A DNA stretch of 21,297 nucleotides, taken from positions 1-21,297 of the forward strand of contig OMSY01000075.1 of assembly GCA_900313875.1 (NCBI GenBank), in the 5' to 3' direction. The stretch is from an uncultured Actinomycetes bacterium (GTDB lineage Bacteria; Actinomycetota; Coriobacteriia; Coriobacteriales; RUG844). A program made the translations under genes and the position numbers. This document shows positions 1 through 18,778 of the stretch, one piece after another. Positions within the stretch are counted from its first letter, which is position 1; each line of letters opens with the position of its first letter. Below the pieces are notes generated by a model. It searched no databases. It had not been told where the DNA came from and saw nothing but the letters and a program-made list of their open reading frames with translations.

Positions 1-1
1 C

Positions 2-271
2 AACGGCCATGCCATGAGCATGGCGGCGATCCTCGACGAGGTCTTGGGCATAGCCGCTTCGGATGCGCGCTCCGTGCGTGATGCAGAGGCCCGTGCCAAG
101 CTGAAGGCGCAGCGTGCAGCGGAGCAGGCGCGGCGCGAGCAGGCCCAGAAGGTCCGTGATGCCAAGATGGATGCGATGCGCAAGGGGGCGACCGGTCGTC
201 TCTCCCGTGTCGAGGAGCCGAAGCGCCAGGACGATGACAAGCCGAAGGGCGAATCATTTCCGGGCAACTGA
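2..271 (+). CDS. 3' end of a hypothetical, charged coiled-coil-like protein (5' partial)
   Basis: The reading frame is open from base 2 to the TGA at 269-271. The first ATG is at base 14, but no ribosome binding site is visible in front of it, so the gene probably begins outside the window. What can be seen is an Ala/Arg/Lys/Glu/Gln-rich stretch (residues about 20-55 counted from the ATG) that would form a long charged helix or coiled coil, followed by a hydrophilic, Lys/Asp/Pro-rich tail ending in FPGN. There is no membrane segment and no recognisable motif. It lies 92 bases upstream of the first EF-hand protein gene on the same strand, so it may belong to the same signalling cluster. I do not recognise the family and assign no function. 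That the ORF is a real gene rests on its codon use and its position. Confidence 0.6.
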   Translation, partial: NGHAMSMAAILDEVLGIAASDARSVRDAEARAKLKAQRAAEQARREQAQKVRDAKMDAMRKGATGRLSRVEEPKRQDDDKPKGESFPGN

Positions 272-303
272 CCTGATGGAACGGACTCCCACCCGAACCT
301 GTG

Positions 304-309
304 TATAAT
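304..309 (+). promoter_or_regulatory. Putative -10 element (TATAAT) upstream of the first EF-hand gene
   Basis: A perfect TATAAT lies 54 bases before the preferred TTG start at 364, giving a predicted leader of about 48 bases. No convincing -35 hexamer is seen at 16-18 bases spacing. Its presence argues that the in-frame GTG at 301, which would put this element inside the coding sequence, is not the true start. Confidence 0.4.
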
Positions 310-363
310 CGAGATATCGACCCGACACCTTTCGGGCAGGCGGGGGCAGGGGGAGGCGTTCCG

Positions 364-936
364 TTGGCAACCAACAGCAATGACCTGAGGACATGGCAGC
401 TCGGTGCTGCGCTTGCGTCCATGGTCGTGTTCTGTCTCCTTGTCTTCTTCTTGCTCATACTTCCCTATTTCGCCCCGAGTCTCCAGCTCAACGCCCCGGC
501 ATCCATGGTGACCATCGATGCGACATCGTTTCCAGATGTGCAGTTGCGCAACTACGTCTCCGCCAATTTCGACAAGGATGGCGACGGCAAGCTGTCCGAG
601 CGCGAGTGCGCCGCGGTCAAGTCCATCGGCACCTATGATCACCGCACGTATCAGGTGACGGACATGGGTATCGCGGCATCCAACGTCAGATCGCTCGAAG
701 GTATCGGGAACTTTCCCAACCTCGAGTCCCTTGTCGCTTCCGGCAACTCGTTGACCATGGTCGATATCACCGGGAATCCCAAGCTCCGCTATCTGGACCT
801 CAGGTCCATGTCCAGTTTCGACTTGTCATATGGTGCGGACAATCTGACCGTGCAGGTGCTCGTCGACGAGAGCTTTGCCGCTTCAAGCGCCGCGGGCAAC
901 CTGAACATCGTGCGTCTGTCCTCACGTGGATATTAG
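364..936 (+). CDS. Membrane-anchored EF-hand / leucine-rich repeat protein (short paralogue)
   Basis: The protein has 190 residues. The TTG at 364 is preferred because GGGAGG (351-356) sits 7 bases before it; the alternative in-frame GTG at 301 has no such site and overlaps a TATAAT. Residues 15-36 form one hydrophobic segment after a short hydrophilic N-terminus, so the rest is probably outside the cell. Residues 48-65 carry the IDATSFPD..LRNYV motif that precedes repeats in many surface LRR proteins. Residues 70-81 (DKDGDGKLSERE) match a canonical EF-hand calcium loop, with acidic or oxygen ligands at 1, 3, 5, 9 and 12. Degenerate leucine-rich repeats follow at residues 105-150. It is a short paralogue of the product at 5920-7611, and its EF loop has the same residue numbers. 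A zinc-ribbon membrane protein gene follows 14 bases downstream. Calcium binding is inferred from the motif; the ligand and partner are unknown. Confidence 0.82.
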   Translation: MATNSNDLRTWQLGAALASMVVFCLLVFFLLILPYFAPSLQLNAPASMVTIDATSFPDVQLRNYVSANFDKDGDGKLSERECAAVKSIGTYDHRTYQVTDMGIAASNVRSLEGIGNFPNLESLVASGNSLTMVDITGNPKLRYLDLRSMSSFDLSYGADNLTVQVLVDESFAASSAAGNLNIVRLSSRGY

Positions 937-950
937 GAGAAGGTGGCGAC

Positions 951-2861
951 ATGCGTTGTCCGGAATGCAACACCGTCAACGACGAGAGCGCCGTGTTCTG
1001 CAGCAACTGCGGAACCGACCTCGAATGGTACCGCATCGAGGGACATGGGAAGTCTGGAGCCGAGGACAGGCTTCGTTCCATGGCGCTTCGCGTCCCCCGG
1101 GTCTTCGAGGAGGACGGTCTGGACGACACAGGCGGGGGGCATGGGTCTCATTTCGCGAGCGAGGTGCTGGGCGACGACCCGACCTATGTGATGGATGAGC
1201 GGTGGCCCGAGGACGATGCCGGCTATGATGATGGTTTCGACTATCAGGACGATGCCGGTTATGATGATGCGAACGCTTTCGAGGATGACAGGTTCGCTGC
1301 AGTTGCGGACATCCCCCATCAGGTCGATGCATCGGGACTCGATGTCTTCGTCACCATGCCTTCGGCTCCCGTCGATGGTACCGAGGTCATGCCCGAGCTG
1401 TCGGGGGATACCGGGCCTCTCCCCCGGGTGGAGACGCCCACTGCGGAACCGTATCGCCTGCTGGAGCCGGAATGGGCGGATGAGTTCGTCGTGGGTGCGA
1501 CGGATTCGGATGACCTGGCCGAGGACTCCGCAGCCGAGACCCCGCGCCCCATTTCCCTGGCCGAGGCTGTCGAGGATTCCAAGCAGAGGACGAGGAGCCG
1601 CAGGAGGAAGGGCATCATCATCTCCTGCACGGCGGCGCTTGTCGTCGCTATCGCATTGGCGGTCCTCATGCACAACCGGATCCGTCCCCTCGACGCTGAG
1701 CGGGTCACAAGCGACCTCAACCAGATAGGTTTTGCAAACGAGACCTATGGCGACCCCACCTACACCCCGGTTACCGGCTATGCGGTGACCGCTTCGAAGA
1801 TCGGCTCGGAAGAGGATGCTGCAAGTGTCGGTCGTTCGCTCTTCCGGAGAATCGTGCACAGGGAGAGCAGCAAGGAGCTCAAGGCGGATGTGAAGCTTTC
1901 CAACGGGTTCTATGATGTGGTGCTGCCGGTCGACCTCATGTATCACTACCAGGACGGACGTTGGGTGCTGGACCAGACCATCAAGGGCGATCCCATGATC
2001 AGCCCGTCCCGTGGCATCGATTTCCAGTCGATGTCGAGCTCCACGCTCCTCTCCATCCTCGAGGATGACGTGCCGAGCGTTGCTGATAGGTTCTCGGACC
2101 CCACGGTCGCCGTGGAGGATTCGCAGTCCGCATCAGGCGGGCAGGCCATCATCCATCTTGCAGAGGCTCCCGCCTCGCGCCCTCTGTTCGACTACAGGGC
2201 AGATGTCACGCTCTTCACCTCGTTCGCGGATGGCAGATGGCATGTCCGGGTCGCGGATGCGGATGACGTCGTCGTGAGCCTGAACACCGACAAGCTGACC
2301 GGTACCTGGGAGGGCAGCCTTGTCGAGAGCCGGGTGTCCTCAGGCGTCAGGAACACCCCCTGTTCTGCAGCGGGTTCGACGACCCCGCTGCTCACCATCT
2401 CCTCGTCCGAGGATGGCACCTCCTTTGCCGCTGCCATCTCGTTCGAGCAGCATCAGCACGGTATGTTCCTACAGGCGGAGGCGGTTCCAAGCCCCACCCT
2501 CCAGCCCTCGCCTTCCCCGAGCATCACTCCCAGCCCCCAGCCTACCCCGGTCGCTCCTGCGACCATCAAGGTCATCGATGCCGACCGGTGGGTGGATGGC
2601 CTGTCCCTTTCCAACTTCCAGATCAACGATGACGGCACCACCTTCCAGGCTTCATACGGCCCCTTCAGCGGGGAGAGCGACACGGTGAGCATAGAGGGGG
2701 CCTTCAGCTCCGATGGAAGCATCTCCATGACCATCGTCTGTAGATACCCCTTTGATGATGAGGGCAACCGATACGACGGCATCTACGACCAGGAGACCGG
2801 TACGTATCTGGGTCCTGCATCCATCTATACGGATACCTACTCCATGCAGAAGAGGGAGTAG
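951..2861 (+). CDS. Zinc-ribbon, single-TM protein with large extracellular region
   Basis: The protein has 636 residues; AGGAGAAGG (935-943) precedes the ATG. The N-terminus is a zinc ribbon with Cys 3, 6, 17 and 20 (CPEC...CSNC). A long acidic, low-complexity cytoplasmic segment follows (residues about 50-200), with the internal repeat DDAGYDD near residues 88-105. A basic RSRRRK stretch precedes one membrane helix at about 221-240, giving an N-in orientation. The exterior part contains two related modules, each carrying an aDGRWxV-type motif (about residues 334 and 426), then a GTWEG module, a Pro/Ser/Thr linker (about 511-540) and a C-terminal beta-rich domain. The zinc ribbon - TM - extracellular layout resembles TcaA-type envelope proteins of Firmicutes, but I see no close family match. 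It sits between the short EF-hand protein and the kinase, and its acidic cytoplasmic tail with several Thr and Ser residues is a plausible kinase target (inference). Confidence 0.85.
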   Translation: MRCPECNTVNDESAVFCSNCGTDLEWYRIEGHGKSGAEDRLRSMALRVPRVFEEDGLDDTGGGHGSHFASEVLGDDPTYVMDERWPEDDAGYDDGFDYQDDAGYDDANAFEDDRFAAVADIPHQVDASGLDVFVTMPSAPVDGTEVMPELSGDTGPLPRVETPTAEPYRLLEPEWADEFVVGATDSDDLAEDSAAETPRPISLAEAVEDSKQRTRSRRRKGIIISCTAALVVAIALAVLMHNRIRPLDAERVTSDLNQIGFANETYGDPTYTPVTGYAVTASKIGSEEDAASVGRSLFRRIVHRESSKELKADVKLSNGFYDVVLPVDLMYHYQDGRWVLDQTIKGDPMISPSRGIDFQSMSSSTLLSILEDDVPSVADRFSDPTVAVEDSQSASGGQAIIHLAEAPASRPLFDYRADVTLFTSFADGRWHVRVADADDVVVSLNTDKLTGTWEGSLVESRVSSGVRNTPCSAAGSTTPLLTISSSEDGTSFAAAISFEQHQHGMFLQAEAVPSPTLQPSPSPSITPSPQPTPVAPATIKVIDADRWVDGLSLSNFQINDDGTTFQASYGPFSGESDTVSIEGAFSSDGSISMTIVCRYPFDDEGNRYDGIYDQETGTYLGPASIYTDTYSMQKRE

Positions 2862-2923
2862 CCCACCGAGGATGATGCGAGGACGAAGAGGTTTGGTTCG
2901 GCGATTGTTTGGCGGGAGATGGA

Positions 2924-4822
2924 ATGGGGCGATGGGAGCAGGACCCGGGGGCGATGCATGACATGACCGGTCATGATGGTGAATCCGGACCCACCTTGCT
3001 GCGGCTCGAGCAGCTCGAGGTGTTCGGCATCCACAGCAAGGAGCAGGAGCGGACTGCGAGACGCCGGTTCCTCACCTTGTTCGAGGATACGAACCAGAAG
3101 CAGCATCGGGGCGGCCAGGGTATGGTCACGAAGGTGACCAACGCGAATGGTGAGGTCTTCGCCCTCAAGCGTCTTGTGTATGGCATGCGTCAACCTGGGA
3201 TGAGCGATGAAGCCTATCTGCGCCTCAGGCAGTCTCAGGAAGAGGCATTCAAGCAGGAATACCTCAGCCAGCAGGTTCCCTCCAACATCGAGGGTTTCCC
3301 CACGCTCTACGGCTACGGCTCCCTCGATGGGGTTCCCATCATCCTCATGGAATGGATCGAGGGGGTGACTCTCTCCAAGGCGCGCAAGGAGATGAGCGTC
3401 AACCCCCAGACCCTGCAGTGGCAGCCGGTTCATATCGCCGAGCTCGGTATCGCGATGTTCTCCCTTTTCACGTACATGGAGCATCAGAAGACGAGCTTTG
3501 TGCATCGCGACATCTCCCCGAACAACATCATGTTCCGCACGAATCACCGGAGCATCACGGAGCAGTTCGCACAAGGCGACCTCGATCTCTGCCTCATCGA
3601 TTTCGGCAGCGCGGCCACCATCGCGCAGTTCGCGGCTTCATCGTTCACGCAGTCGACCAATGTCCTGCGTAGGGCGACCCTCGACTACGCTGCACCCGAG
3701 ATGCTCACGGATGACATCCCGAAGCGGCAGCTCGCTCTGTTGAGGAGTTCCCCGAGCATCGATGTCTATGCCACCTGTAGCGTGCTCTACGAGCTGTTCG
3801 GTGGCTATACGCCTTTCAACTTCTATGGTGGCGAGACCATCGCGTCCCCCTATCTCCACAAGCTCGAGGCGAGGATCCCGATGCCGGGGAGCGCGCATGA
3901 GGATGGCAATGGGGCGCAATGGGGTCAATGGGATGGCGAGCTGGCGCGGCTTCAGGGCAGGCTTCATGACAACATGGTCTCCCCGTTCGACCATGACCGG
4001 TTCGCCGCATCCGTCCGTCGCGTGGACCAGCAGCTTGCGCTCATCATCATGGGAGGGATCCGTGCCGAGCAGCAGGAACGGCCGACGGCACGTGAGATGC
4101 TCGGATTCCTGCAGAATTTCAAGACGAACTACTACCGCAACATCGAGCGATGCTACAAGGGGGAGGCGATCATCCCCTTCAGGCAGATGGGGTCTTCGGG
4201 GATGGGGGCTCAGGTGCCGATGCCCCATCTCAAGCGGCCTGCGGCGAGCAACCCCTACGCCGACCCTTGGGTCATCACGCGTCAGGATCCGTCAGTATCC
4301 CGGCAGCCGATGGATTCTGTCGCTGGCGGTGCCTCCAGCATGCCGTCGTCGGAAGGAAGGGGCGCCACGCTTGAGCCGGGGCTGCAGAAGGGCGCCCTGC
4401 GGATGCGACGTGGCCTGCTTGGCGGCCTCATCGGCGGTTCGTCGGCCCTGGTCTTCGTCATCACGCTGGTTCTCGCCTCCATCCCCTCCGACCTCTATTA
4501 TTCCCTGCATCTTCTCTCCACGGGGTTCAGCGGCTCCATACCGACCGGTCTTGCCGCCCTGATCTCCGTGATGCCACCACTCGTGTCGTTTGCCTGCATG
4601 TGGCCCGGGACGACTCCTGACGGGAGGTTGTTCGCCGGGACGATGGCGCAGGTCGTTGCGAGCCTACCCTGGCTCCTCTTCATCTGGCTTGCCAGGTGGG
4701 CGGTGCCATCGGCTCCGGCGCTGCTTGGGCTGGCGTTGATCCTGGGCACGGTCATCGTGTTCGCGACCGAGTTCTACATCCGGTCCGTTTCCATCTCTTC
4801 ATCCAAGGGGGTGCGGTCATGA
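2924..4822 (+). CDS. Eukaryotic-type serine/threonine protein kinase with C-terminal membrane domain
   Basis: The protein has 632 residues. The ATG at 2924 has GGGAG (2913-2917) 6 bases upstream; an upstream TTG (2909) and downstream ATGs (2954, 2963) are alternatives. The kinase core can be followed in order: glycine-rich loop GGQGMVTKV (63-71), Lys82 in ALKRL, probable helix-C Glu112, catalytic loop HRDISPNN (Asp196, Asn201), DFG (226-228) and APE (257-259). The usual Lys two residues after the catalytic Asp is Ser198. A variable linker with Pro and Ser (about 415-490) leads to roughly four hydrophobic helices (about 496-625), so the kinase domain is cytoplasmic and membrane-tethered at its C-terminus. 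There are no PASTA repeats, so it is not a PknB/StkP-type muropeptide sensor. Its stop overlaps the start of the FHA gene (ATGA), implying translational coupling and a shared pathway. Substrates are inferred to be the neighbouring zinc-ribbon proteins. Confidence 0.9.
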   Translation: MGRWEQDPGAMHDMTGHDGESGPTLLRLEQLEVFGIHSKEQERTARRRFLTLFEDTNQKQHRGGQGMVTKVTNANGEVFALKRLVYGMRQPGMSDEAYLRLRQSQEEAFKQEYLSQQVPSNIEGFPTLYGYGSLDGVPIILMEWIEGVTLSKARKEMSVNPQTLQWQPVHIAELGIAMFSLFTYMEHQKTSFVHRDISPNNIMFRTNHRSITEQFAQGDLDLCLIDFGSAATIAQFAASSFTQSTNVLRRATLDYAAPEMLTDDIPKRQLALLRSSPSIDVYATCSVLYELFGGYTPFNFYGGETIASPYLHKLEARIPMPGSAHEDGNGAQWGQWDGELARLQGRLHDNMVSPFDHDRFAASVRRVDQQLALIIMGGIRAEQQERPTAREMLGFLQNFKTNYYRNIERCYKGEAIIPFRQMGSSGMGAQVPMPHLKRPAASNPYADPWVITRQDPSVSRQPMDSVAGGASSMPSSEGRGATLEPGLQKGALRMRRGLLGGLIGGSSALVFVITLVLASIPSDLYYSLHLLSTGFSGSIPTGLAALISVMPPLVSFACMWPGTTPDGRLFAGTMAQVVASLPWLLFIWLARWAVPSAPALLGLALILGTVIVFATEFYIRSVSISSSKGVRS

Positions 4823-5760
4823 CCGCTCAGATGCCCTGCTCGCTCATGTTCAACGTGTTCAAGGATTTCGGACGCCTCAATTACCGGAGTCTTGCCTCCA
4901 TCATCCTGACCGACCGGACGCTCTATGACGGACGCAGCCCCAGGAGCCGTATCGATGAGAAGACCTGGCTTTCGAGAAACGTCGTCCATGCACCTGCTGG
5001 AAGCATCCCCGAAGCATACTTCGAGGATTTCTCGAAAAGCGCCCAGAGCGTGGCAGCGCATCTCAAGAGCGCTCGGGGAGCGGGCCTGTCCAATGAGGAG
5101 ATCATCGGGTATTTCTCCGGCGAGGGCGCTCTGCGCATGGCCCAGACCCTCGAGGCGTGTCATCTCGACCGCACCATCTACGAGAACATCGTCAACAAGG
5201 TCATGAGGCTCCAGCTGCCCTCATCCGCAGGGCTTGTCGAGCTGCTCCTCATCCACTTCATCGCAACCGGCTGCATCGGCAATCCCTACAGATCTGCCGA
5301 GTACACGCTCGGATATGCGCAGAACACGCTCGGAGTGCAGTTCAGGACATCCATGGCGACCTTCGCCGAGGTCGATGGTCCCGATGAGGAAGATGATGTC
5401 CAACTCTGCCTGTTCCGCATGGTGGGCAACAAGCTCAAGGGCAAGCCGTATCGTCTCGACCCCGAGGGGACCGAGATCGGTGCTCTCAGCACCAGTCGGA
5501 GCTCGATCAACGATGTGGATCCCACGGTTTCCGGGCATCACCTGCGTATCTGGCGGGGCCCCGGCGGGCATTGGTATGCCGAGGGGCTCAATTCGAAGAA
5601 CGGTACCGTGCTCATCAGCGGCGAGGATGACAGCATGCGTGTCGTCGAGCCGCCGCGTGACAAGCGCGAGGGGTTCGCATCCGGTGCCGTGCCCATCGCT
5701 CCAGGGGACCAGCTCGTGTTGGGTGGTGCAACCGTCTTCATGGTGATGCAGACCGTGTAG
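4819..5760 (+). CDS. FHA-domain protein with uncharacterised N-terminal domain
   Basis: The protein has 313 residues. The ATG at 4819 overlaps the kinase stop (ATGA) and has AAGGGGG (4805-4811) 7 bases before it; upstream in-frame starts lie inside the kinase gene and are rejected. Residues about 205-313 form a forkhead-associated domain, the phosphothreonine-binding fold. Visible marks are an Arg in the first loop (R227), the S-G-H-H core (Ser238, His241) and NSKNGT (258-263), which correspond to the conserved SxxH and N-G residues of the family. Residues 1-200 are mostly helical, contain no membrane segment and match nothing I recognise. Fused to a cytosolic phosphothreonine reader and coupled to the kinase gene, the N-terminal part is probably the effector or adaptor half of the pathway. 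The FHA assignment is strong; the role of the N-terminal domain is unknown. Confidence 0.88.
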   Translation: MTAQMPCSLMFNVFKDFGRLNYRSLASIILTDRTLYDGRSPRSRIDEKTWLSRNVVHAPAGSIPEAYFEDFSKSAQSVAAHLKSARGAGLSNEEIIGYFSGEGALRMAQTLEACHLDRTIYENIVNKVMRLQLPSSAGLVELLLIHFIATGCIGNPYRSAEYTLGYAQNTLGVQFRTSMATFAEVDGPDEEDDVQLCLFRMVGNKLKGKPYRLDPEGTEIGALSTSRSSINDVDPTVSGHHLRIWRGPGGHWYAEGLNSKNGTVLISGEDDSMRVVEPPRDKREGFASGAVPIAPGDQLVLGGATVFMVMQTV

Positions 5761-5799
5761 CGCGGTCAGGTTGGGCGATAGGGCGGATCGTGCCCCGTT

Positions 5800-5811
5800 G
5801 GTTGCGCAACC
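5800..5811. promoter_or_regulatory. 12-bp perfect palindrome, possible operator
   Basis: GGTTGCGCAACC reads the same on both strands and lies 18 bases upstream of the extended -10 element before the 5920 gene. With wobble pairs it extends to 5797-5814 and could instead be the stem of a weak terminator for the FHA gene, but no T-run follows. Its position just upstream of a promoter-like element favours a regulator site; this is inference. Confidence 0.35.
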
Positions 5812-5828
5812 GGCTCATCTGAATGGCG

Positions 5829-5837
5829 TGATATAGT
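5829..5837 (+). promoter_or_regulatory. Putative extended -10 promoter (TGATATAGT)
   Basis: TG-A-TATAGT matches the extended -10 form (TGnTATAAT with one mismatch). It lies 82 bases before the ATG at 5920, giving a predicted leader of about 75 bases. No good -35 hexamer is evident, which extended -10 promoters tolerate. It would separate the cluster into two transcription units, one ending with the FHA gene and one starting here. Confidence 0.45.
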
Positions 5838-5919
5838 TCAAGAGGCTCGTTGGTGCGGGCAAAGCGGCCTCTGCGTGCGCTTCCCGCGTTCTGCATGGTG
5901 GGTTCTGAGGAGATGAGTG

Positions 5920-7611
5920 ATGGATTGGGTCAGGCAACTTGAGTCGAAGCAGAAGATGGTGCTCAGCCTTCTTGCTGCCCTCGTGATCGTCTTCATGCTG
6001 TATCTCGGATCGTTGATCTGGTTCAAGTTCGGCAACAACGGCCCGATTCGCTGGCTGTACGGTACGCGGATCGACGCGACCGCCTTCCCCGATGAGAACT
6101 TCAGAGGCTATGTCACCGCACATTTCGATGCGGATGGCAACAACGTGCTCTCCCGCAGGGAGGCGGATGCGGTCACGAGCATCGGCGAGGTGGACCCGGT
6201 GACGGGCGTGGTCATCGATCCCGGGCTGTCCGATCTGGGCATCTACTCGTTCAAGGGCATCTCGAACTTCCGCAACATCCGCGTGCTCGTGTGCAGGAAC
6301 AACCCATGCGGCTATATCAACCTCAGCAGATGCCGTTTCGTCCGGTACGTGTACACCGACAGGAAAGTGTACGTGAACAAGCAATACGTGAAGGAAGTCA
6401 CCGTCGTCAAGTACACGGAGGAGGACGGCAACAAGGTCGACCCATCCAAGACCGAGGCCCCCGAGACGACGGAGAAGACGGGCGATGGCGACCCGGCCCC
6501 GACTCCGGCTGCGACGGGCACCCCCGCTGCGACCAACGCGCCGACGAAGGAAGCCAAGGATGATGGCGGTGGGAAGGCCACGTCTGTCTCAGGCGATGGC
6601 AAGATTCACCAGGCAACCTCGGTGCAGAAGGTGGGGGGCACCATCTACGCCTCGGGTCTCGATGGTACCGCTTCCGGTGTCACCTCGGTCAGCTGGGGTC
6701 CCTTCGTGACGGATGGCAGTGGAACTGCCTATTACGTCAAGGGTGGGTCCGTCTACAGGGCGTCGCTCTCGGGGTCGGGGAGCGGCGAGTCGGTCGGCAC
6801 GGTCAGCGGCGGTTCGGCGAGCAGGCTTTTCCTCTCGGGCGGGTATCTCTATTGCGGCCCGCAGCGCATCAGCGCGAAGGGAGGGAAGGCGGAGAGCTTC
6901 GATGGCGAGGTCCTCTGCGCGAGTGACAAGCGGGTCTATTACAAGAAGGACGGCTCCGCCTACTGTTGCGACAGTGACGGGTCGAACGAGCAGAAGCTTC
7001 CCGACATGAAGGCCAGCGGGGACTCGGCGGTCGTCGCCAGCAACGGAACCGTCTGCTTCATAAGCGCTTCGGGCAGCTCGACCTCGTTGACCCGCTACTC
7101 ATCCGACGGGAAGGCCCAGGGTTCCGACAAGGTGGATGGCGGTGCCTGGTACTACGACGGGAACGCGATCTGGGTGCTGGCATCCGATGGCACCGTCACC
7201 AAGTTCGACCCGTCCTCGGGCTCCGAATCCAAGGGTGGAACGGTCGACACCGATGCGTTCAGCACCTCGACGGCCGGCACGGCGGGACCCAGCAGTTCCC
7301 CCTCGCCGACTCCAAGGCCGACTGCTGCGGCATCCGTCTCGCAGCCTGCCTCTTCCGGGGATGTCTCCGGTACCGATGCGAGCAGCACGACCCCGGGCGC
7401 CGATGCCGATGAGCCGACGCCTGCTGTCGACGGGACACCTGGTGCCGGTGATGCGGGTACCGGTTCCGGATCAGGTGCAAGCAGGTCTTCCGTGAGCCTG
7501 GCAGGATGCCACCTGGACTTCTGCGATGGAAGCAAGCTGGTGTTCACGGATGCGGATGGTACGAGCTACAGCTATGACCTGTCTTCAAGGAAGGGGACCA
7601 GGTTCAACTGA
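5920..7611 (+). CDS. Membrane-anchored EF-hand / LRR protein with extracellular propeller-like region
   Basis: The protein has 563 residues. The ATG at 5920 has GAGGAG (5907-5912) 7 bases upstream; the adjacent GTG at 5917 would leave only 4 bases. Residues 14-35 form a single membrane anchor. Residues 50-150 parallel the product at 364-936: IDATAFPDENFRGYV, an EF-type loop at 70-81 (DADGNNVLSRRE, with Asn where Gly6 is expected) and LRR-like residues. After a Thr/Pro/Ala/Lys linker (about 170-225) come repeated short strands with alternating Tyr-Val, Ser-Asp-Gly and Gly-Ser motifs (about 228-440), like DUF5050/WD40-type propeller repeats. A second low-complexity Ser/Thr/Pro/Gly linker (445-525) leads to a small C-terminal beta unit. 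The architecture suggests a surface-exposed binding or sensing protein on flexible stalks. It lies between the FHA gene and the zinc-ribbon genes. Its ligand is unknown; the propeller assignment is by pattern only. Confidence 0.82.
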   Translation: MDWVRQLESKQKMVLSLLAALVIVFMLYLGSLIWFKFGNNGPIRWLYGTRIDATAFPDENFRGYVTAHFDADGNNVLSRREADAVTSIGEVDPVTGVVIDPGLSDLGIYSFKGISNFRNIRVLVCRNNPCGYINLSRCRFVRYVYTDRKVYVNKQYVKEVTVVKYTEEDGNKVDPSKTEAPETTEKTGDGDPAPTPAATGTPAATNAPTKEAKDDGGGKATSVSGDGKIHQATSVQKVGGTIYASGLDGTASGVTSVSWGPFVTDGSGTAYYVKGGSVYRASLSGSGSGESVGTVSGGSASRLFLSGGYLYCGPQRISAKGGKAESFDGEVLCASDKRVYYKKDGSAYCCDSDGSNEQKLPDMKASGDSAVVASNGTVCFISASGSSTSLTRYSSDGKAQGSDKVDGGAWYYDGNAIWVLASDGTVTKFDPSSGSESKGGTVDTDAFSTSTAGTAGPSSSPSPTPRPTAAASVSQPASSGDVSGTDASSTTPGADADEPTPAVDGTPGAGDAGTGSGSGASRSSVSLAGCHLDFCDGSKLVFTDADGTSYSYDLSSRKGTRFN

Positions 7612-7679
7612 TGTGGCGATGCGGGGCATGACCGGGCTTCATGGGCGGTCCATGGAATCTCAGGGAGGGGGGCAGCGGC

Positions 7680-8276
7680 ATGGATGCTGAACGCTTGCGG
7701 TCGATGAGCGGGGAGGAACTAGGCAGCGCCATCGAGGATTGCGGAAGTCATCTCGCGGGTCTCTTGACCAAGCTGGGCGACGAACTCTATGGGGAAACGC
7801 GGGATGATGCACGTTTCCTGCACGGCAGGGAGGACCTGTACAAGGCCATCGGTCAGGGCAAGGCGCATATGGACGAGCTGCTTGCAGAGCAGGGTCGCAG
7901 ACAAGGGGCCGGCTCGTCATCCGGTGCATGCCCATGTTGCGGCAAGCCCCTCGAACCTGGTTTCGGGTTCTGCGCCTGGTGCGGTACGCAGGTTCAGGGG
8001 CCTGCGGGGGTGTCGGGGAACCAGGCATCGGCTTGTCCGTCCTGCGGCGCGCGCGTCCTTGCCGACGATGCGTTCTGCATGTCCTGCGGCACGAAGTTGG
8101 AGATGCTGCCCGTATCGGCGGCTCCTCGGACCGCGGGCGAACAGGTCCAGGACGACTCCTTGAAGGACGACGCGGAGGAGCCTACCGCCCCCCTGCACGT
8201 TGCCTGTCCCGATTGCGGGTTCGAGAATCTTCCGACTGCGCGCTTCTGCCATGGCTGCGGGCGAGCACTGAGATAA
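7680..8276 (+). CDS. Soluble protein with N-terminal helical domain and three zinc ribbons
   Basis: The protein has 198 residues. The ATG at 7680 is chosen because a GGGAGGGGGG run (7663-7672) ends 7 bases before it; the in-frame ATG at 7641 lacks a site. Residues 1-75 are predicted helical and hydrophilic. Three zinc ribbons follow: Cys 84, 87, 98, 101; Cys 119, 122, 133, 136; and Cys 176, 179, 190, 193, each as CxxCG...FCxxCG. There is no membrane segment, unlike the neighbouring zinc-ribbon proteins. The tail-anchored zinc-ribbon gene starts 16 bases after its stop, so the two are very likely cotranscribed and may interact. Repeated zinc ribbons in bacteria usually mediate protein or nucleic-acid contacts; the partner cannot be read from the sequence. 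Confidence 0.85.
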   Translation: MDAERLRSMSGEELGSAIEDCGSHLAGLLTKLGDELYGETRDDARFLHGREDLYKAIGQGKAHMDELLAEQGRRQGAGSSSGACPCCGKPLEPGFGFCAWCGTQVQGPAGVSGNQASACPSCGARVLADDAFCMSCGTKLEMLPVSAAPRTAGEQVQDDSLKDDAEEPTAPLHVACPDCGFENLPTARFCHGCGRALR

Positions 8277-8292
8277 GGCGGGGAGGAACAGG

Positions 8293-9345
8293 ATGTTCTG
8301 CATACATTGCGGCAAGGAGAACCAGGATGGCGCGAGGCACTGTGCGTTCTGCGGTCAACCGCTGAACGACCGGACGATGGCCCTTACCTTGCTTCCTGAT
8401 GAAGATGCTGCTCAGGGGGAGGCGCCTTCTGTGCAGGAGCATGTCCAGGACGCGTCCTTCTGCATCCATTGCGGTACGGAGGTCAACCTCGATGCCCTGT
8501 TCTGCCCCCAATGCGGCCAGCCGGTCAACGACAGGACGATGGCGACGGTCATCCTCGCGGAGGACGAAGCCGAGGGGCCGGTTGCAGGGCCTGATGGTGA
8601 CCGTGAGGGGATTCCTGCCGAGAGTCCTCTTGGGGGGAGCGCGGTGAGGGAGGAGACGAGCTCCTGCCTGGCGTGCGGGGCCGACAACGACCCCGATGCC
8701 GTCGTTTGCGCCGTGTGCGGCACCCCGTTCCCCGGCCATACCATGGATGCCCTGAGTCTCGGACAGCCCCATGACAGCCGGTCTGATGCTTGTGAGAGCG
8801 CCGGAGAGCCGCGGACGATGGACCTGGAGCCCCTGCCTGCGGATGAGACGGTCAGGATGCATCCCGTGTCCGATCCGCATGCGACTGCCGAGATGCCGCC
8901 TATCGGGGACGGCGTTCCGACAGCCGACACGCCTTCCATGGGCGTGCTGGACGCGGCTCATGACGGAGCTGCTGTCGGGGGGAACGCCGTGCCAGGGCCC
9001 GCAGCCGGGTTCCCTGCTGGGGCACAGGTGCCGTCGGCAGGGTCGCAGTCGCAGGTGCCGACTCCTGCATCGACCCTGTTCTGCATGCATTGCGGTGCCC
9101 CCAACAAGTCGACCTCCCAGTTCTGCTCGCGTTGCGGCCAGAGGATGGGGACCACCCCTTCCACACGCATGACGGTCTCGCCTCCTGTCGGCGGGGGCAT
9201 GCGGGCAGAGGGGGCCACGGCGGCCCCGATGCAGTCCCGCGAAGAGGTGGACCGCAGCTACCGCAAGGTCGTCATCCTGCTCGTGGCGATACTCGCGTTG
9301 CTGGTCGTGCTCTCGGTTTTCCTTACGGTCGACCTGTTCATGTGA
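8293..9345 (+). CDS. Tail-anchored protein with four zinc ribbons and repeated Thr-Met motifs
   Basis: The protein has 350 residues; GGAGGAA (8282-8288) precedes the ATG. Four zinc ribbons are clear: Cys 3/6/17/20, 57/60/71/74, 125/128/139/142 and 264/267/278/281. After each of the first three comes a short conserved Thr-Met motif (NDRTM at T28, NDRTM at T82, PGHTM at T150). A further PRTM (T175) stands alone, and STRMT (T291, T294) follows the fourth ribbon. A long Ala/Gly/Pro-rich linker separates ribbons three and four. Residues 326-348 form a single hydrophobic segment at the very C-terminus, so the zinc ribbons should face the cytoplasm on a tail anchor. With a kinase and an FHA reader in the same cluster, the repeated Thr motifs are candidate phosphorylation and docking sites (inference). 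Confidence 0.87.
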   Translation: MFCIHCGKENQDGARHCAFCGQPLNDRTMALTLLPDEDAAQGEAPSVQEHVQDASFCIHCGTEVNLDALFCPQCGQPVNDRTMATVILAEDEAEGPVAGPDGDREGIPAESPLGGSAVREETSSCLACGADNDPDAVVCAVCGTPFPGHTMDALSLGQPHDSRSDACESAGEPRTMDLEPLPADETVRMHPVSDPHATAEMPPIGDGVPTADTPSMGVLDAAHDGAAVGGNAVPGPAAGFPAGAQVPSAGSQSQVPTPASTLFCMHCGAPNKSTSQFCSRCGQRMGTTPSTRMTVSPPVGGGMRAEGATAAPMQSREEVDRSYRKVVILLVAILALLVVLSVFLTVDLFM

Positions 9346-9405
9346 GCTGGGTCCGGCCGGTTCGTCTCGTCCCGATGTCAGGGGCGCCTTGCGGGGAGGG
9401 ATATC

Positions 9406-10623
9406 ATGGAGTTGCTCGCTCCTGCAGGAGGACTCGAACAGCTTGAATACGCCCTGCATTTCGGAGCCGATGCCGTCTATCTCGGTGGCGAGCGGTTCGG
9501 TCTGCGCGCCCGTGCCTGCAATTTCACCGATGATGAGCTCGCGCATGCGGTAGGTTTGGTCCATGATGCGGGGAAGTGCGTCCACGTCACGCTGAACAGC
9601 CTCATGCATGAGGGCGACCTCGAGCCGCTTCGCAGCTTCATCGTCTTCCTTGCCGACCTCGGGGTCGACGCCGTCATCGTGAGCGATATGGCGGCGGTGA
9701 GGCTGGTGCGCGAGCTTGCCCCGACGATCGATATCCATATCTCGACCCAGGCTTCATGTGCCAACCATCTCGCCGCGTTGCAATGGTATGAGCTCGGCGC
9801 GAGACGCATCGTCCTTGCGCGGGAGCTCTCGTTGTCGGAGATCGCCGCCATACGCGCGCGCATCCCACGCGACCTCGAGCTCGAGGTCTTCGTCAACGGG
9901 GCCATGTGCATGGCCTATTCGGGTCGTTGCCTGATCAGCACGTATCTCACCGGGCGCGATGCCAACAGGGGGAACTGCACCCAGCCGTGCAGATGGAACT
10001 ACGTGCTCGAGGAGGAGAAACGCCCCGGCGAGTACTTTCCGGTCGAGGAAGACCGCCATGGCACCTACATCATGAACTCCAAGGACCTCATGATGCTCGA
10101 GCATCTCGACGATCTCGAAGCGGCGGGGGTTGACAGCATCAAGATCGAGGGTCGTGTCAAGGGTGCATATTACATCGCGACGGTCGTGAACGCCTATCGG
10201 CATGTCCTGGATGGCGCGGACCCCCGCGACTACCTGCCCGAGATGGAGGCGGTCAGCCATCGTCCCTATCATACGGGGTTCTTCTATGGTCCTGCGGAGC
10301 AGGAGGTGGGGGAATCGGTCTACACGCAGACCCATGATTGGGTTGCCGTGGTGGATTCCTGTGTGCCTGTGGATTCCCAGGAGGCAGCCTGGTCAGTCGA
10401 CGTCATCCAGCGCAACCGGTTCTTCGACGGTGACGAGCTCGAGGTGCTGTCTCCGGGAAAGCCGGTCCGCAAGGTCATCGTGCATGACCTGCGTACCGAC
10501 CTGGGCCAGACCTGCGAGGTGGCGAACCGTGCGCTTGCGGTCTATGGTTTCACCTGCGAGCACGAGCTCGGCCCCCGTGACATCCTTCGGAGGAAGCGTG
10601 AGGATGCACGCGTGAAGGGCTAG
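9406..10623 (+). CDS. trhP: U32-family tRNA 5-hydroxyuridine synthesis protein TrhP (YegQ)
   Basis: The protein has 405 residues. A GGGGAGGG site (9393-9400) precedes the ATG by about 5 bases. The N-terminus ELLAPAGGLEQLEYALHFGADAVY is typical of peptidase family U32. The family signature is present at 160-178 (E.F..GAMC....G.C.IS), and Cys168, Cys175, Cys191 and Cys195 are the likely Fe-S ligands. The RPGEY...EDRHGTYIMNSKDL block (206-228) is the hallmark of the YegQ/TrhP branch, which uses prephenate to make 5-hydroxyuridine at the tRNA wobble position; despite the name, it is not regarded as a protease. It is somewhat shorter than E. coli YegQ (about 450), mainly because the segment between the last Cys pair and the RPGEY block is short. 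It lies 60 bases after the zinc-ribbon gene and may be read through from it, but its function is unrelated. Confidence 0.9.
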   Translation: MELLAPAGGLEQLEYALHFGADAVYLGGERFGLRARACNFTDDELAHAVGLVHDAGKCVHVTLNSLMHEGDLEPLRSFIVFLADLGVDAVIVSDMAAVRLVRELAPTIDIHISTQASCANHLAALQWYELGARRIVLARELSLSEIAAIRARIPRDLELEVFVNGAMCMAYSGRCLISTYLTGRDANRGNCTQPCRWNYVLEEEKRPGEYFPVEEDRHGTYIMNSKDLMMLEHLDDLEAAGVDSIKIEGRVKGAYYIATVVNAYRHVLDGADPRDYLPEMEAVSHRPYHTGFFYGPAEQEVGESVYTQTHDWVAVVDSCVPVDSQEAAWSVDVIQRNRFFDGDELEVLSPGKPVRKVIVHDLRTDLGQTCEVANRALAVYGFTCEHELGPRDILRRKREDARVKG

Positions 10624-10631
10624 ATGCCCTT
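10615..10631 (+). terminator. Putative hairpin at the end of trhP
   Basis: AAGGGC and GCCCTT flank a 5-base loop that contains the trhP stop codon. It could act as a transcription terminator or an mRNA end-protecting hairpin. No long T-run follows, so the call is tentative. The rest of the 124-base convergent gap (10624-10747) holds a GACCGGTC palindrome (10728-10735) and nothing else I recognise. Confidence 0.35.
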
Positions 10632-10747
10632 GGCCTTACGCCGATATCCCATCTGAAGGGGAATCGGGGGACGGTATGCGGGCAGGCAAAGGACGTCCAC
10701 GGATGTGTGGGTGCTTGATCGGGGGTTGACCGGTCTTCAGCAGATGG

Positions 10748-11677
10748 TCAGATCTTCTTCGTCCTGATGCCCATGAAGTTGAGACCGCGGGTGATCTCCT
10801 CGAATGCCGCATTGTCCTCGGCGAGCCCTATCGCCCCTACCGCCTCGTCGAGCGCTGCATCGAACAGGTCATCGAACGATTCGGTGGAGGTCTCATGGGT
10901 CGAGGGGTTGTTCCAGGGAAGATGCTCGCTGTTCGAGAACGCGCAGTCGTCGTGCACGTCGACGCGGGTGCTCATGGCCTGGACGAGCGAATGGGGGCGG
11001 GTGAGGCGCTCGAGCGTGCCGAACAGGCTGCGCTTGATGCCGCGAGGTGACCACATGGCCCGTCGCACGAAGCGCATGTCGCGGATCGCCCGGCTGAAGG
11101 TGCCCGGCTTGAGGGTCGTCCGGTATGCGCTGATGGCGACATAGCGGATGATCTTGTCGACGGTCTCGAGGAGCTCATCGCTTGCCCAGAGCATCTTCTG
11201 GTGATCCCGGTAATCGCGGATGTCCACGCCCTTCCGACGCCAGAGCATCATCGCGTCGAGGTCGGCCTCGATCTGCCCGTGTACCTCGCTCGAACTGCTG
11301 CCATCGAGTCCGGGGACCCCCGCCGAGGTGAGTGCACGGACCTGGGCGTTGATGAGCGGATGGGTGCGGGAGTCGAGGAAGAAGTGGCAGAGGAACCCGT
11401 GGAAGTAGGCCTGCGCCAAGCTGCGTTCGTGCTCGCCCAAACTGTTCGAGAACGACCGCATGGCCTCGAGCTCGGTGTTGACGCTCTCGCGGTGCATCCG
11501 GGTGCCGAGCAGGTGCATCTCCGAGAGCTTCCTGCCGGTGATCAGGTAATACAGTGGATCGGGGCCTTGGTTGCCGAGCATGAACGCGTTGTGTTCGTCG
11601 AAAGACGTGTAACGTTGGTATCCGAACGATTCGAGTATATGCTCACCGAAGATATGATGGGCTATCGCTGCCGGCAT
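10748..11677 (-). CDS. Zinc-dependent phospholipase C family protein
   Basis: The protein has 309 residues. The ATG at 11677 (read on the - strand) has GGGGAGGGG about 5 bases upstream; an in-frame start 7 codons earlier lacks a site. The sequence fits the Zn_dep_PLPC family: MPAAIAHHIFGE (His7, His8), GNQGPDPLYY (36-44), MHRES (His62) and YFHGFLCHFFLDSRTHP (His93, His98, Asp102, His106), which supply the likely metal ligands. It has no signal peptide, so unlike secreted clostridial phospholipase C it should act in the cytoplasm. Its substrate is uncertain, and many relatives are annotated only by the domain. It is transcribed divergently from lysC and convergently with trhP, with its own extended -10 element. 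Confidence 0.85.
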   Translation of the reverse strand: MPAAIAHHIFGEHILESFGYQRYTSFDEHNAFMLGNQGPDPLYYLITGRKLSEMHLLGTRMHRESVNTELEAMRSFSNSLGEHERSLAQAYFHGFLCHFFLDSRTHPLINAQVRALTSAGVPGLDGSSSSEVHGQIEADLDAMMLWRRKGVDIRDYRDHQKMLWASDELLETVDKIIRYVAISAYRTTLKPGTFSRAIRDMRFVRRAMWSPRGIKRSLFGTLERLTRPHSLVQAMSTRVDVHDDCAFSNSEHLPWNNPSTHETSTESFDDLFDAALDEAVGAIGLAEDNAAFEEITRGLNFMGIRTKKI

Positions 11678-16748: not shown

Positions 16749-16772
16749 TTCCGCGACTGATTGGAGGGTGCC

Positions 16773-18047
16773 TTGGAGAACAAGCGCACGGTCATGATAG
16801 AGACCATCCTCACGGCTGTTCTCGTCATGCTCCTCCTGATCGTCGTCTGGTGTCTTGCCGCTCCGGGCCGTCATTATGCGCTGCTCATCATCGTGGTGCT
16901 TGCGCTGATCGGATACGGCTTGCTGGCCCTGCGCTATGCGATCAACCCCGATCAGATCAGGGCGCGTCAGACCGCGCGTACCCTGTACCTTGCACGCAGG
17001 ACCGCCAAACCCATGAGCAACGGACTGTCGCATGAGTCGGCGGGAGCTGTCTGCGACATGCTGTTGCCGCAGACCACCGCGGTGGGCGTCCTCATGACCG
17101 ATACCGAGGGTGTGCTGGGGTATGCGGGAATAGACGATGAGTCGATGCGGATCGGCAAGCCCATCGAGACGCATGCGGTCCAGCGGACGCTGAGCGATGG
17201 TATCACGCGCATCCTCGTGACCCCCGAGGCGGTCGGGATGGTTGGCGATGACCCGTCCTTCAAGGCGGCGATCGTCGTGCCGCTTGTGGTCAACAACAAC
17301 GTCATCGGGTGCCTCGAGCTGCTCTACCATAGCCCGCGCATGATCGATGAGACGCAGCAGGCCATGGGGGAGGGTCTCGGGCAGCTTCTCTCCACCCAGC
17401 TCTCGGTGGCCGAGCTTGAAGCCCAGACCGAGTTGGCGACGCATATGGAGCTCAAGGCACTTCAAGCGCAGATCAACCCGCATTTCCTGTTCAACACGAT
17501 CAACACCATCGCGTCGCTGTGTCGGACGGACGCGGACAAGGCACGTGTGCTGTTACGCGAGTTCGCGGTCTTCTACCGACGCACGTTGGAGAACTCCGAG
17601 GACCTCATCCTCATCGGTGAGGAGATAGAGCAGACGAAACGGTATTTCGGGTTCGAGCTGGCGCGCTTCGGGGAGGAGCGTCTCGAGCTCGAGTGCCGCA
17701 TCGAGGAGGGGCTCGAGGAGCTTGCCGTGCCCTCGTTCATCATCCAGCCCCTCGTGGAGAACTCGGTACAGCATGCGATGAGGCCGGAAGGAAAGTTGCA
17801 TATTCACATCGAAGTGAAACGCGTCAATTCCGATGTGATAGTATCAATCTCAGACGACGGCGTCGGTATTCGGCCGGAAGAGCTTCCGCTCGTGCAGAAG
17901 AGCGGTTATGGTAAGGGTACGGGCGTTGCGTTGAAGAATGTCGAGGACCGCCTCAAGGGATTTTTCGGGGCGGGTTCAGGTATGCGTATCGAGTCCGAGT
18001 TCGGACAGGGGACTACGGTATACTTGACGTTGCACGACGCATGTTGA
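16773..18047 (+). CDS. LytS-like sensor histidine kinase (2 TM - GAF - HisKA_7TM/LytS type)
   Basis: The protein has 424 residues. The TTG at 16773 has GGAGG (16763-16767) 5 bases upstream; an in-frame TTG at 16761 contains this site and is rejected. Two membrane segments (11-29, 36-55) are followed by a GAF-like domain (about 85-205), then the LytS/YpdA-type kinase domain. Its marks are His237 in QINPHFLFNTINTI, the N box PLVENSVQHA (Asn330), DDGVGI (361-366) and GTGVALKNV (382-390). Full-length LytS proteins have a five- or six-helix 5TM-5TMR sensor; here only a hairpin remains, so sensing probably rests on the GAF domain. The end of the gene overlaps or nearly touches the LytTR regulator gene, its cognate partner. 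Such pairs often respond to envelope or pyruvate-type signals, which cannot be distinguished here. Confidence 0.92.
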   Translation: MENKRTVMIETILTAVLVMLLLIVVWCLAAPGRHYALLIIVVLALIGYGLLALRYAINPDQIRARQTARTLYLARRTAKPMSNGLSHESAGAVCDMLLPQTTAVGVLMTDTEGVLGYAGIDDESMRIGKPIETHAVQRTLSDGITRILVTPEAVGMVGDDPSFKAAIVVPLVVNNNVIGCLELLYHSPRMIDETQQAMGEGLGQLLSTQLSVAELEAQTELATHMELKALQAQINPHFLFNTINTIASLCRTDADKARVLLREFAVFYRRTLENSEDLILIGEEIEQTKRYFGFELARFGEERLELECRIEEGLEELAVPSFIIQPLVENSVQHAMRPEGKLHIHIEVKRVNSDVIVSISDDGVGIRPEELPLVQKSGYGKGTGVALKNVEDRLKGFFGAGSGMRIESEFGQGTTVYLTLHDAC

Positions 18048-18064
18048 AAGGTTGGGTGCGACAG

Positions 18065-18778
18065 ATGCTCAAGGCAATCATTGTTGACGACGAGGCTCCT
18101 GCACGTTCGGAGCTGCGTTTCATGCTGGAGGAGACCGGTCAGGTCGATGTTGCGGCCGAGGCCATCAACGTGAGGGAGGCCATCGAGCGTCTCAAGGACA
18201 GCGGTGCCGATGTCATGTTCCTTGACATCAACATGCCGGGGACCAACGGTCTCCAGCTGGCCGAGGCCCTCTCCAAGCTCAAATACCCACCTGCCGTCGT
18301 GTTCGTCACCGCATACAGCGAGCACGCACTGGAGGCGTTCGGGGTCAATGCCGTCGACTACCTGGTCAAGCCAGTGGAGAGCGAGCGCCTGCTCCAGGCC
18401 ATCTCCAAGGTGCGCAAGGCCATCGCCAGCACCTCGAAGAACGCGCAGCGCGAGCGCATCCCCGTGGAGAAGGGCGGCAAGAAGCTCCTCGTCCCGGCGG
18501 ACAAGATCCACTTCATCATGGCAAAGGACGACTACTCGTACCTGCACACCGACACGGACCGGTACCTGTCCACGGTGTCGCTTGCCCAGCTCGAGGCCAA
18601 GCTCGAGTCGTACGGGTTCTTCCGTGTGCACAGACGCTACCTCGTGAACCTGGCCTGCGTCTCCGAGGTGGACCCTGTCTCGGGCGGCACGCTCATGCTG
18701 ACGCTCAACGGCGAGGATGAGCAGATTCCCGTCTCGCGGCGTAGGGTGGCGAGCCTCAAGAAGGCGCTGGGTCTCTGA
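18065..18778 (+). CDS. LytTR-family response regulator
   Basis: The protein has 237 residues from the ATG at 18065, where the receiver domain begins (MLKAIIVDDE). In-frame alternatives are the GTG at 18056, 4 bases after GAAAGG (18046-18051), and the ATG at 18041, which overlaps the kinase stop; the exact start is uncertain. The receiver domain (1-118) has Asp8/Asp9, phospho-acceptor Asp54 in MFLDINMPG, Thr82 and Lys102 in DYLVKPV. The LytTR DNA-binding domain (about 132-235) has the typical FIMAKDDYSYLHT and FFRVHRRYLVNLACVSEV blocks. It would be phosphorylated by the upstream kinase and then bind direct-repeat promoter sites. Targets are not visible, though the adjacent promoter with an inverted repeat may be autoregulated. 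Confidence 0.93.
   Translation: MLKAIIVDDEAPARSELRFMLEETGQVDVAAEAINVREAIERLKDSGADVMFLDINMPGTNGLQLAEALSKLKYPPAVVFVTAYSEHALEAFGVNAVDYLVKPVESERLLQAISKVRKAIASTSKNAQRERIPVEKGGKKLLVPADKIHFIMAKDDYSYLHTDTDRYLSTVSLAQLEAKLESYGFFRVHRRYLVNLACVSEVDPVSGGTLMLTLNGEDEQIPVSRRRVASLKKALGL

Follow-up and report, generated by a model that had tools for sequence, protein, structure and literature searches.

A conserved kinase-FHA gene pair of Coriobacteriales with recurrent but exchangeable zinc-ribbon and surface-protein neighbours

The stretch of DNA analysed here, 21,297 nt from an uncultured member of the Coriobacteriia and referred to as the window, contains a seven-gene cluster (364-9345) around a Hanks-type Ser/Thr kinase (KIN) and a protein with a forkhead-associated (FHA) domain. 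The kinase-FHA pair is a solid unit, restricted to one order in our sample. Gene pairs of this kind are already known, and the present one represents a variant of them. Beside it, zinc-ribbon and EF-hand proteins recur as exchangeable partners, tied to the pair by physical linkage and by ectodomains shared in relatives. We suggest that the pair is the core of a modular outside-to-inside Ser/Thr kinase/FHA system of Coriobacteriia with exchangeable surface modules, a reading to which we assign a probability of about 0.5. No description of such a cluster in Coriobacteriia was found in the open-licence literature.

The conservation of the pair was followed in two sets of loci. Forty FHA loci were fetched, picked for spread from the class-wide list of FHA matches, while a kinase profile scan of named genomes gave 177 confirmed places, 80 of which were analysed. 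The sets overlap in genomes, and several contigs occur twice, once as a named and once as an unnamed locus; grouping the 120 kinases of both sets into 58 clusters at 75% identity removes most of this redundancy. A homologue of the FHA protein is found in 77 of the 296 class genomes and in 27 of the 125 genera; three of the 77 (G216, G247 and G259) match in the FHA domain only. Among 396 genomes across the phylum, full-length matches occur in 12 of the 35 from the same order and in none of the other 361, where the best match (E 7.6e-13) covers the FHA-side part. The other two sampled genomes of the window's own family have no FHA match.

A kinase of the window family lies at most 1.5 kb from the FHA match in 38 of the 40 FHA loci (none in L066 and L072), and the FHA gene is present in 75 of the 80 kinase loci (absent in L103, L107, L122, L126 and L147). 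By title, these 80 loci come from Coriobacteriia genera or families, among them the common gut genera Collinsella, Slackia, Olsenella and Adlercreutzia, and in the case of L147 from an uncultured actinobacterium. At the level of clusters, 52 of 58 have the FHA gene within 3.5 kb of the kinase. The six misses comprise three kinases at most 1.4 kb from a contig end (L122, L126, L147), a second kinase beside an intact pair (L117), a locus with the FHA gene at 4.5 kb (L134) and one with no FHA gene (L107). The residues of an active Hanks-type kinase, i.e., the VAIK Lys, the helix C Glu, the HRD motif, the catalytic Asn, DFG and APE, are all found in the kinase alignment: K71, E101, H183, D185, N190, D215, G217, P247 and E248 are invariant in 40 aligned kinases and R184 is kept in at least 90% (KIN residues are counted from position 2957).

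The seven genes of the cluster are listed below, with transmembrane (TM) helices taken from a simple hydropathy scan and LRR standing for leucine-rich repeat.

EF1, 364..936, + strand: short N-terminal part, one TM helix, a single EF-hand loop (DxDxDGxLxxxE) and a short LRR
ZR1, 951..2861, + strand: one N-terminal zinc ribbon, an acidic linker, a TM helix at residue 222 and a large ectodomain
KIN, 2909..4822, + strand: Hanks-type kinase with catalytic residues kept and four predicted C-terminal TM helices
FHA, 4819..5760, + strand: N-terminal domain of about 190 residues, then a C-terminal FHA domain without the GR arginine
EF2, 5917..7611, + strand: TM helix at residue 16, an EF-hand-like/LRR unit homologous to EF1 and a long low-complexity part
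ZR2, 7641..8276, + strand: no TM helix, a helical domain and three zinc ribbons; ATG 7680 is the likelier start
ZR3, 8293..9345, + strand: four zinc ribbons, with NDRTMA after two of these, and a C-terminal TM helix at residue 326

Reading of the open reading frames (ORFs) and Pfam matches bear out what a preliminary description of this DNA had stated, i.e., seven genes in one direction with short gaps (14, 47-92, -4, 156, 29-68 and 16 bp in order) and three zinc-ribbon proteins, of which ZR1 and ZR3 have a TM helix and ZR2 has none. The same description had proposed a membrane-tethered eukaryotic-type kinase. KIN does match Pkinase (51 bits, cut-off 31.7); however, it has four C-terminal TM helices and not a single tether. 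Its start is uncertain (TTG 2909, ATG 2924 or ATG 2954), and its stop overlaps the FHA start by the ATGA at 4819-4822, as had been noted. EF1 starts at TTG, with gggggagg upstream and an alternative GTG at 301. The two proposed EF-hand/LRR surface proteins do have one TM helix each, and the EF-hand/LRR part of EF1 probably faces outside, but their EF hands are less certain: the EF1 match (15.2 bits) is under the Pfam cut-off of 25.4, its LRR match is also under the gathering score, and EF2 has no EF-hand match in Pfam at E 1. Paired EF hands above the Pfam cut-off are found in neither protein, and since each has a single loop, any Ca2+ binding is putative. Nothing resembling a promoter or a terminator was seen in the gaps, in a scan without power (1 and 2 sites in 1-10800 against 2.1 and 4.7 expected), and Rfam gave no match at the gathering threshold.

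The tree of the 58 kinase clusters, with a midpoint root for drawing only, contains two large lineages and a group around the window kinase. Core clade A (29 clusters, support 100/98) is the commonest lineage sampled, and 25 of its 29 kinases have three to five TM helices. Directly upstream of the kinase, 24 of the 29 A clusters carry a gene that we call C2, which a profile built from such genes finds directly upstream in none of the 29 others. C2 has one N-terminal TM helix, a long linker and a small C-terminal domain, which would lie outside the cell. In clade B (25 clusters, support 100/100), one TM helix is predicted in 20 kinases and none was detected in five, and the order is FHA-kinase in 15 of 25. 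The window kinase falls outside core A, grouped with L034 and L095 (99/86) and next to L121 and L126. From its kinase, which is identical to a named protein at 599 of 604 residues, L034 is judged to be Slackia heliotrinireducens, and L095 is titled Phoenicibacter congonensis. In L034 an EF1 homologue is directly upstream of the kinase and overlaps its start, at the position of C2 in clade A; in the window, ZR1 stands between the two.

The most telling result is the occurrence of the same ectodomains on some kinases and some zinc-ribbon proteins. In clade B, 19 of the 25 kinases bear an ectodomain exceeding 80 residues, with 8 in a WG-repeat group and 11 in a DUF6273 group (PF14903 and PF19789 in a Pfam check of one kinase per group). 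The DUF6273 ectodomain is also found on two zinc-ribbon proteins, L117:14606-15760 and L056:4714-6408. Another ectodomain, named 'GTWxG' here, is carried by seven zinc-ribbon proteins that are all within 2.3 kb of kinases. A profile of these seven matches the L121 kinase (E 2e-24) and, in part and at a contig end, the L126 kinase (E 4e-5). Moreover, an EF1-like EF-hand/LRR unit occurs within a zinc-ribbon TM protein in L095 and L073 (E 2e-5 and 1e-8). In L095 the order is kinase-FHA-ZR-ZR(EF/LRR), so that the EF/LRR protein is the second gene after the pair. These shared ectodomains in relatives show that a single pool of domains supplies the kinase, zinc-ribbon and EF/LRR parts alike.

The zinc-ribbon genes are also physically concentrated around the pair in part of the tree. 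Using a strict pattern, which missed at least one gene (L107:8282-9664), a zinc-ribbon gene was found within 6 kb of the kinase in all four window-type clusters (L034, L095, L121, L126), in 11 of 25 in clade B and in one of 29 in clade A. The difference between non-A (15/29) and A (1/29) clusters has a Fisher p of 5.8e-5, for clusters that are not independent samples. Zinc-ribbon genes in the non-A loci are densest close to the kinase, at 0.18-0.23 per kb up to 2 kb away, and fall to about 0.03 per kb at distances above 4.5 kb. The arrangement varies between genera. In Tractidigestivibacter (L118) and Collinsella tanakaei (L104), divergent zinc-ribbon genes stand beside the kinase or the FHA-kinase pair, genes in both directions in an uncultured Olsenella (L117), and co-directional genes upstream in L121; they are downstream in L095 and on both sides in L034.

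The family to which ZR2 belongs, as a divergent member, has a helical domain; it recurs near kinase and FHA genes of several genera, with members in L034, L118, L117, L121, L106 and L126. This family is present in 66 of the 296 class genomes, of which 27 have the FHA protein and 39 have no FHA match, and one of the 39 (G276) has the kinase at a contig end. The co-occurrence with FHA is modest (27 genomes against 16.5 expected, p=0.001, leaving out the three genomes with the FHA domain only). Physical linkage is a stronger signal: in 9 of the 27 genomes with both, ZR2-family and FHA genes are at most about 10 kb apart, with about 0.2 expected (p 1.2e-9 with three congeners counted once, for odds that assume 20 kb of a 2.4 Mb genome). 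ZR1 has one homologue above threshold besides itself (74% identity) among 8000 scored candidates. The class is rich in PF13240-type zinc ribbons, with 3 to 41 matches per genome in 55 Coriobacteriia genomes (ribbons rather than genes), and for most such proteins we know of no function. The median count of ribbons is 5 in 20 genomes without FHA, 9 in 19 with clade A and 18 in 15 with clade B or window-type kinases. These medians have little weight, as ribbons and not genes are counted, most of the 15 genomes were chosen after their loci, several of which have zinc-ribbon cassettes, were seen, relatedness is uncorrected, the clade A placement of G172 is assumed, and G160, which carries clade B kinases, was dropped from the A set.

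The FHA domain itself (PF00498) is found in all 40 aligned members of the family, without the arginine of the GR block. GR and SXXH are among the conserved blocks of FHA domains (excerpt of PMC4238996). In the family, the position that follows the invariant G221 is occupied by A, S, Y, C or I and by Arg in none of the 40 rows; any Arg between positions 217 and 237 occurs in two rows, one of them the window (R227). S238, H241 and G262 are kept in all 40 rows and N261 in 37. The window protein reads IGALS where an FHA protein on contig C212 of its own genome reads IGRSP. Judged by its sequence, the window FHA is thus not a canonical phosphothreonine reader as the preliminary description had it, even though the domain and the overlap with the kinase gene stand. 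In MupFHA, mutation of the Arg weakened binding to its kinase (PMC4238996, excerpt). FHA domains of YukB/EssC, which are without a phosphothreonine site, bind the YukC/EssB pseudokinase, apparently without phosphorylation (excerpts of PMC9600267 and PMC11217815). With the GR arginine lost, the window FHA most likely docks on the kinase rather than reads phosphorylated zinc-ribbon proteins, and we prefer docking on these alignments.

We suggest that the fixed core of the system would be the membrane kinase with its FHA partner, and that the sensing part would be exchangeable. In kinases with one TM helix the sensor could be built in, as a WG-repeat, DUF6273 or 'GTWxG' ectodomain. In kinases with three to five TM helices and no large ectodomain, sensing could be left to a neighbouring single-TM surface protein. 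This would be C2 in most cases and EF1 in Slackia heliotrinireducens and, with ZR1 between, in the window. The zinc-ribbon membrane proteins may be frequent partners, either receptors or clients, which might answer the same outside ligand as the kinase or bind it via like ectodomains. The FHA protein would dock on the kinase, where either the kinase domain or the activation loop would be bound, and act there as a stable adaptor or as an inhibitor. The N-terminal domain of the FHA protein, for which no match was found in Pfam or the PDB, might contact a downstream target.

Several observations weigh against this proposal. Gene neighbourhood is not interaction, and 14 of the 29 non-A clusters have no strict zinc-ribbon gene within 6 kb. 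Of 20 ZR2 loci that were fetched, most belong to genomes in which FHA had no match (in G080 there is one at another place); 19 have no kinase within about 9 kb and the twentieth is L126's own contig. The zinc-ribbon cassette can thus be separated from the kinase. As to the WG ectodomain, kinases have it but no zinc-ribbon protein with it was seen. In the window itself, the kinase has no large ectodomain and the ZR1 ectodomain matches the 'GTWxG' profile weakly (E 0.002). Finally, S238, H241 and mostly N261 of the phosphate pocket are kept and the window has R227 in the loop, so phosphate binding is possible.

A broader version of the modular system can be speculated upon, in which these genes form an undescribed receptor family specific to Coriobacteriales: the same exchangeable ectodomains on kinase and zinc-ribbon proteins would let one outside ligand co-assemble both, with the arginine-less FHA as a constitutive kinase subunit. 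We regard this as a tentative possibility, and, if true, the family would be a bacterial analogue of co-receptors with a shared ectodomain. The opposite explanation is that the kinase-FHA pair and a surface cassette of zinc-ribbon and EF/LRR genes are two independent modules, joined by chance of gene order or by shared regulation. The separable ZR2 loci agree with it, as do the 39 of 66 ZR2-family genomes without an FHA match and the near absence of zinc ribbons from the clade A pair. Against it stand the linkage in 9 of 27 genomes, the ectodomains common to kinases and zinc-ribbon proteins, and the divergent or co-directional zinc-ribbon genes adjoining the kinase in several genera; we regard independence as rather unlikely.

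The model of the preliminary description, in which the kinase phosphorylates threonines of zinc-ribbon scaffolds, e.g., in the NDRTMA of ZR3, and the FHA protein is recruited to the phosphothreonine, we consider quite unlikely. It could draw on the two NDRTMA motifs in ZR3 and on Thr motifs that recur in the linkers of zinc-ribbon proteins close to kinases (L070, L126, L095), on SxxH and N261 being kept in 40 and 37 of 40 rows, and on the recurrence of zinc-ribbon genes beside the pair. Its weakest link is the reading step, with the GR arginine missing in all 40 rows and an Arg nearby in two. In addition, like Thr motifs are seen by eye in genomes without the pair (L155, L160, L171), and the motifs were dropped as evidence for kinase/FHA sites; the recruitment step is left with no specific support. 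Of the 29 clade A clusters, 28 lack a zinc-ribbon gene within 6 kb. The pair consistently occurring without the zinc-ribbon and EF-hand genes had been named as an outcome that would speak against the description, and clade A shows it in part. Conservation of the seven-gene order had been proposed as a check, and the order is not conserved among relatives. What does hold is the more general idea of a phospho-signalling module at the membrane, as the pair is conserved over several families of the order and zinc-ribbon genes recur in two of the three kinase lineages.

It could also be argued that the kinase serves as a regulator in secretion or defence, such as a T7SSd kinase like TsdD of Olsenella uli, or an anti-phage kinase. 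T7SSd clusters of Olsenella do hold a Ser/Thr kinase and FHA domains (PMC11217815, excerpt), the kinase domain matches mad6 and PD-T4-6 of PADLOC with up to 68 bits, and three very large ORFs are found near kinases (L133, L104, L126), where a TsdI-like protein is possible. Against this, a pattern scan of the 58 kinase clusters, in which many loci end less than 10 kb from the kinase, found no WXG100-like gene and no large protein combining TM helices with several Walker sites. Five large Walker proteins have one site each, and the sole one with TM helices is an ABC-transporter-like ORF. No YukC was found in the window's own genome, and the other six cluster proteins have no PADLOC match. The linked TsdC ATPase and WXG100 protein of T7SSd were thus not seen in that scan. 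The system partners of MADS and PD-T4-6 were likewise not found among the seven cluster proteins. A role in secretion or defence is very improbable.

The modular kinase/FHA system that we prefer can be compared with several known ones. In the mycobacterial pairs PknB-Rv0019c, PknF-Rv1747, PknH-EmbR and PknQ-MupFHA, a Hanks-type kinase gene is beside an FHA gene, as here. MupFHA binds PknQ and suppresses its autophosphorylation (PMC4238996, excerpt). However, MupFHA has the GR arginine, and the same excerpt makes no mention, for the mycobacterial pairs, of the N-terminal domain, the zinc-ribbon partners or the swappable ectodomains seen here. In EssC/YukB, as here, the GR arginine is absent, and the FHA region of EssC/YukB binds a membrane kinase-like domain, apparently with no need of phosphorylation (excerpts of PMC9600267 and PMC11217815). 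EssB is nevertheless a pseudokinase and EssC a secretion ATPase, whereas here the catalytic residues are kept and the FHA is a separate small protein; no EssC-like ATPase was seen near the kinases in the pattern scan of the 58 clusters. The window pair could thus be an active-kinase counterpart to the phospho-independent contact between FHA and pseudokinase in type VIIb secretion.

PknB chains are the best PDB matches of the kinase by sequence, and the PASTA kinases PknB/PrkC are Hanks-type TM kinases too. They differ by their PASTA repeats, which are absent from the window kinase according to Pfam (43 bits for the PknB_PASTA model, cut-off 450). The archaeal Arn network (ArnA, ArnB, ArnC, ArnD) resembles the present system in that one pathway combines an FHA protein with Ser/Thr kinases, and the PDB matches of the FHA family profile include the FHA domain of ArnA. 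In ArnA a zinc finger and the FHA domain are joined in one chain. Here, unlike in ArnA, the zinc ribbons and the FHA domain are encoded by different genes, and a Pfam search of the FHA protein gave no zinc-ribbon match. The site of ArnA also contains Arg-132, and the partner of ArnA is the von Willebrand factor A (vWA) protein ArnB (PMC6509490, excerpt); no vWA domain was found in the cluster by Pfam. Membrane proteins with a CX2CX10CX2C zinc site are found in Lactococcus (Llmg_0524/Llmg_0526) and in Staphylococcus (TcaA) as well. Llmg_0524 has a part in the integrity of the cell wall, and the excerpt of PMC4628341 mentions no linked kinase or FHA for Llmg_0524/Llmg_0526. ZR3 scores 20.1 bits against the TcaA equivalog of NCBIfam, far under its cut-off of 550. 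The tie to the kinase-FHA pair, together with the common ectodomains, gives a testable handle on the zinc-ribbon proteins.

Closer FHA homologues, with 46-54% identity, exist in public sequence sets, where they are known without genomic context. A search of a plasmid collection gave one match, on a 0.9 Mb Collinsella record. In Collinsella aerofaciens NZ_OY725717 (L285:6867-10085), a gene that comes after an 'FHA domain-containing protein' contains the kinase match and is annotated as 'DUF6273 domain-containing protein'; as the annotation names DUF6273 only, the kinase is hidden there. About 4 kb from another FHA-kinase pair, L150:3342-6038 is an 898-residue ORF that appears to fuse zinc ribbon and FHA in a single protein. 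Its zinc ribbon is N-terminal, and FHA-like stretches and a part resembling ABC transporters were recognised by eye. In L155, L160, L171 and others, where no FHA match is found, zinc-ribbon membrane proteins have acidic-Thr-hydrophobic linker motifs, which are perhaps sites of another kinase.

The genome of the window (1.16 Mb, 80% complete) contains further genes of this kind. The preliminary description saw neither a PASTA domain nor a phosphatase, which is right for the window but not for the genome, as contig C104 carries an FHA-PP2C-PASTA kinase locus and C212 a second PP2C. On C104 (L243:916-9621), a kinase-like ORF with seven predicted TM helices is beside FhaA-like, FhaB-like, PP2C and PASTA kinase genes (by eye and Pfam). 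C212 (L242) has a similar FhaA-FhaB-PP2C stretch, which could be a duplication or result from mixed strains in the assembly. In the window, ZR3 is followed by a U32-family gene at 9406 (Pfam). Further downstream, at 16761-18778, a sensor kinase gene with TM helices and an HFLFN motif overlaps a response regulator gene, and the two appear LytS/LytR-like by sequence reading.

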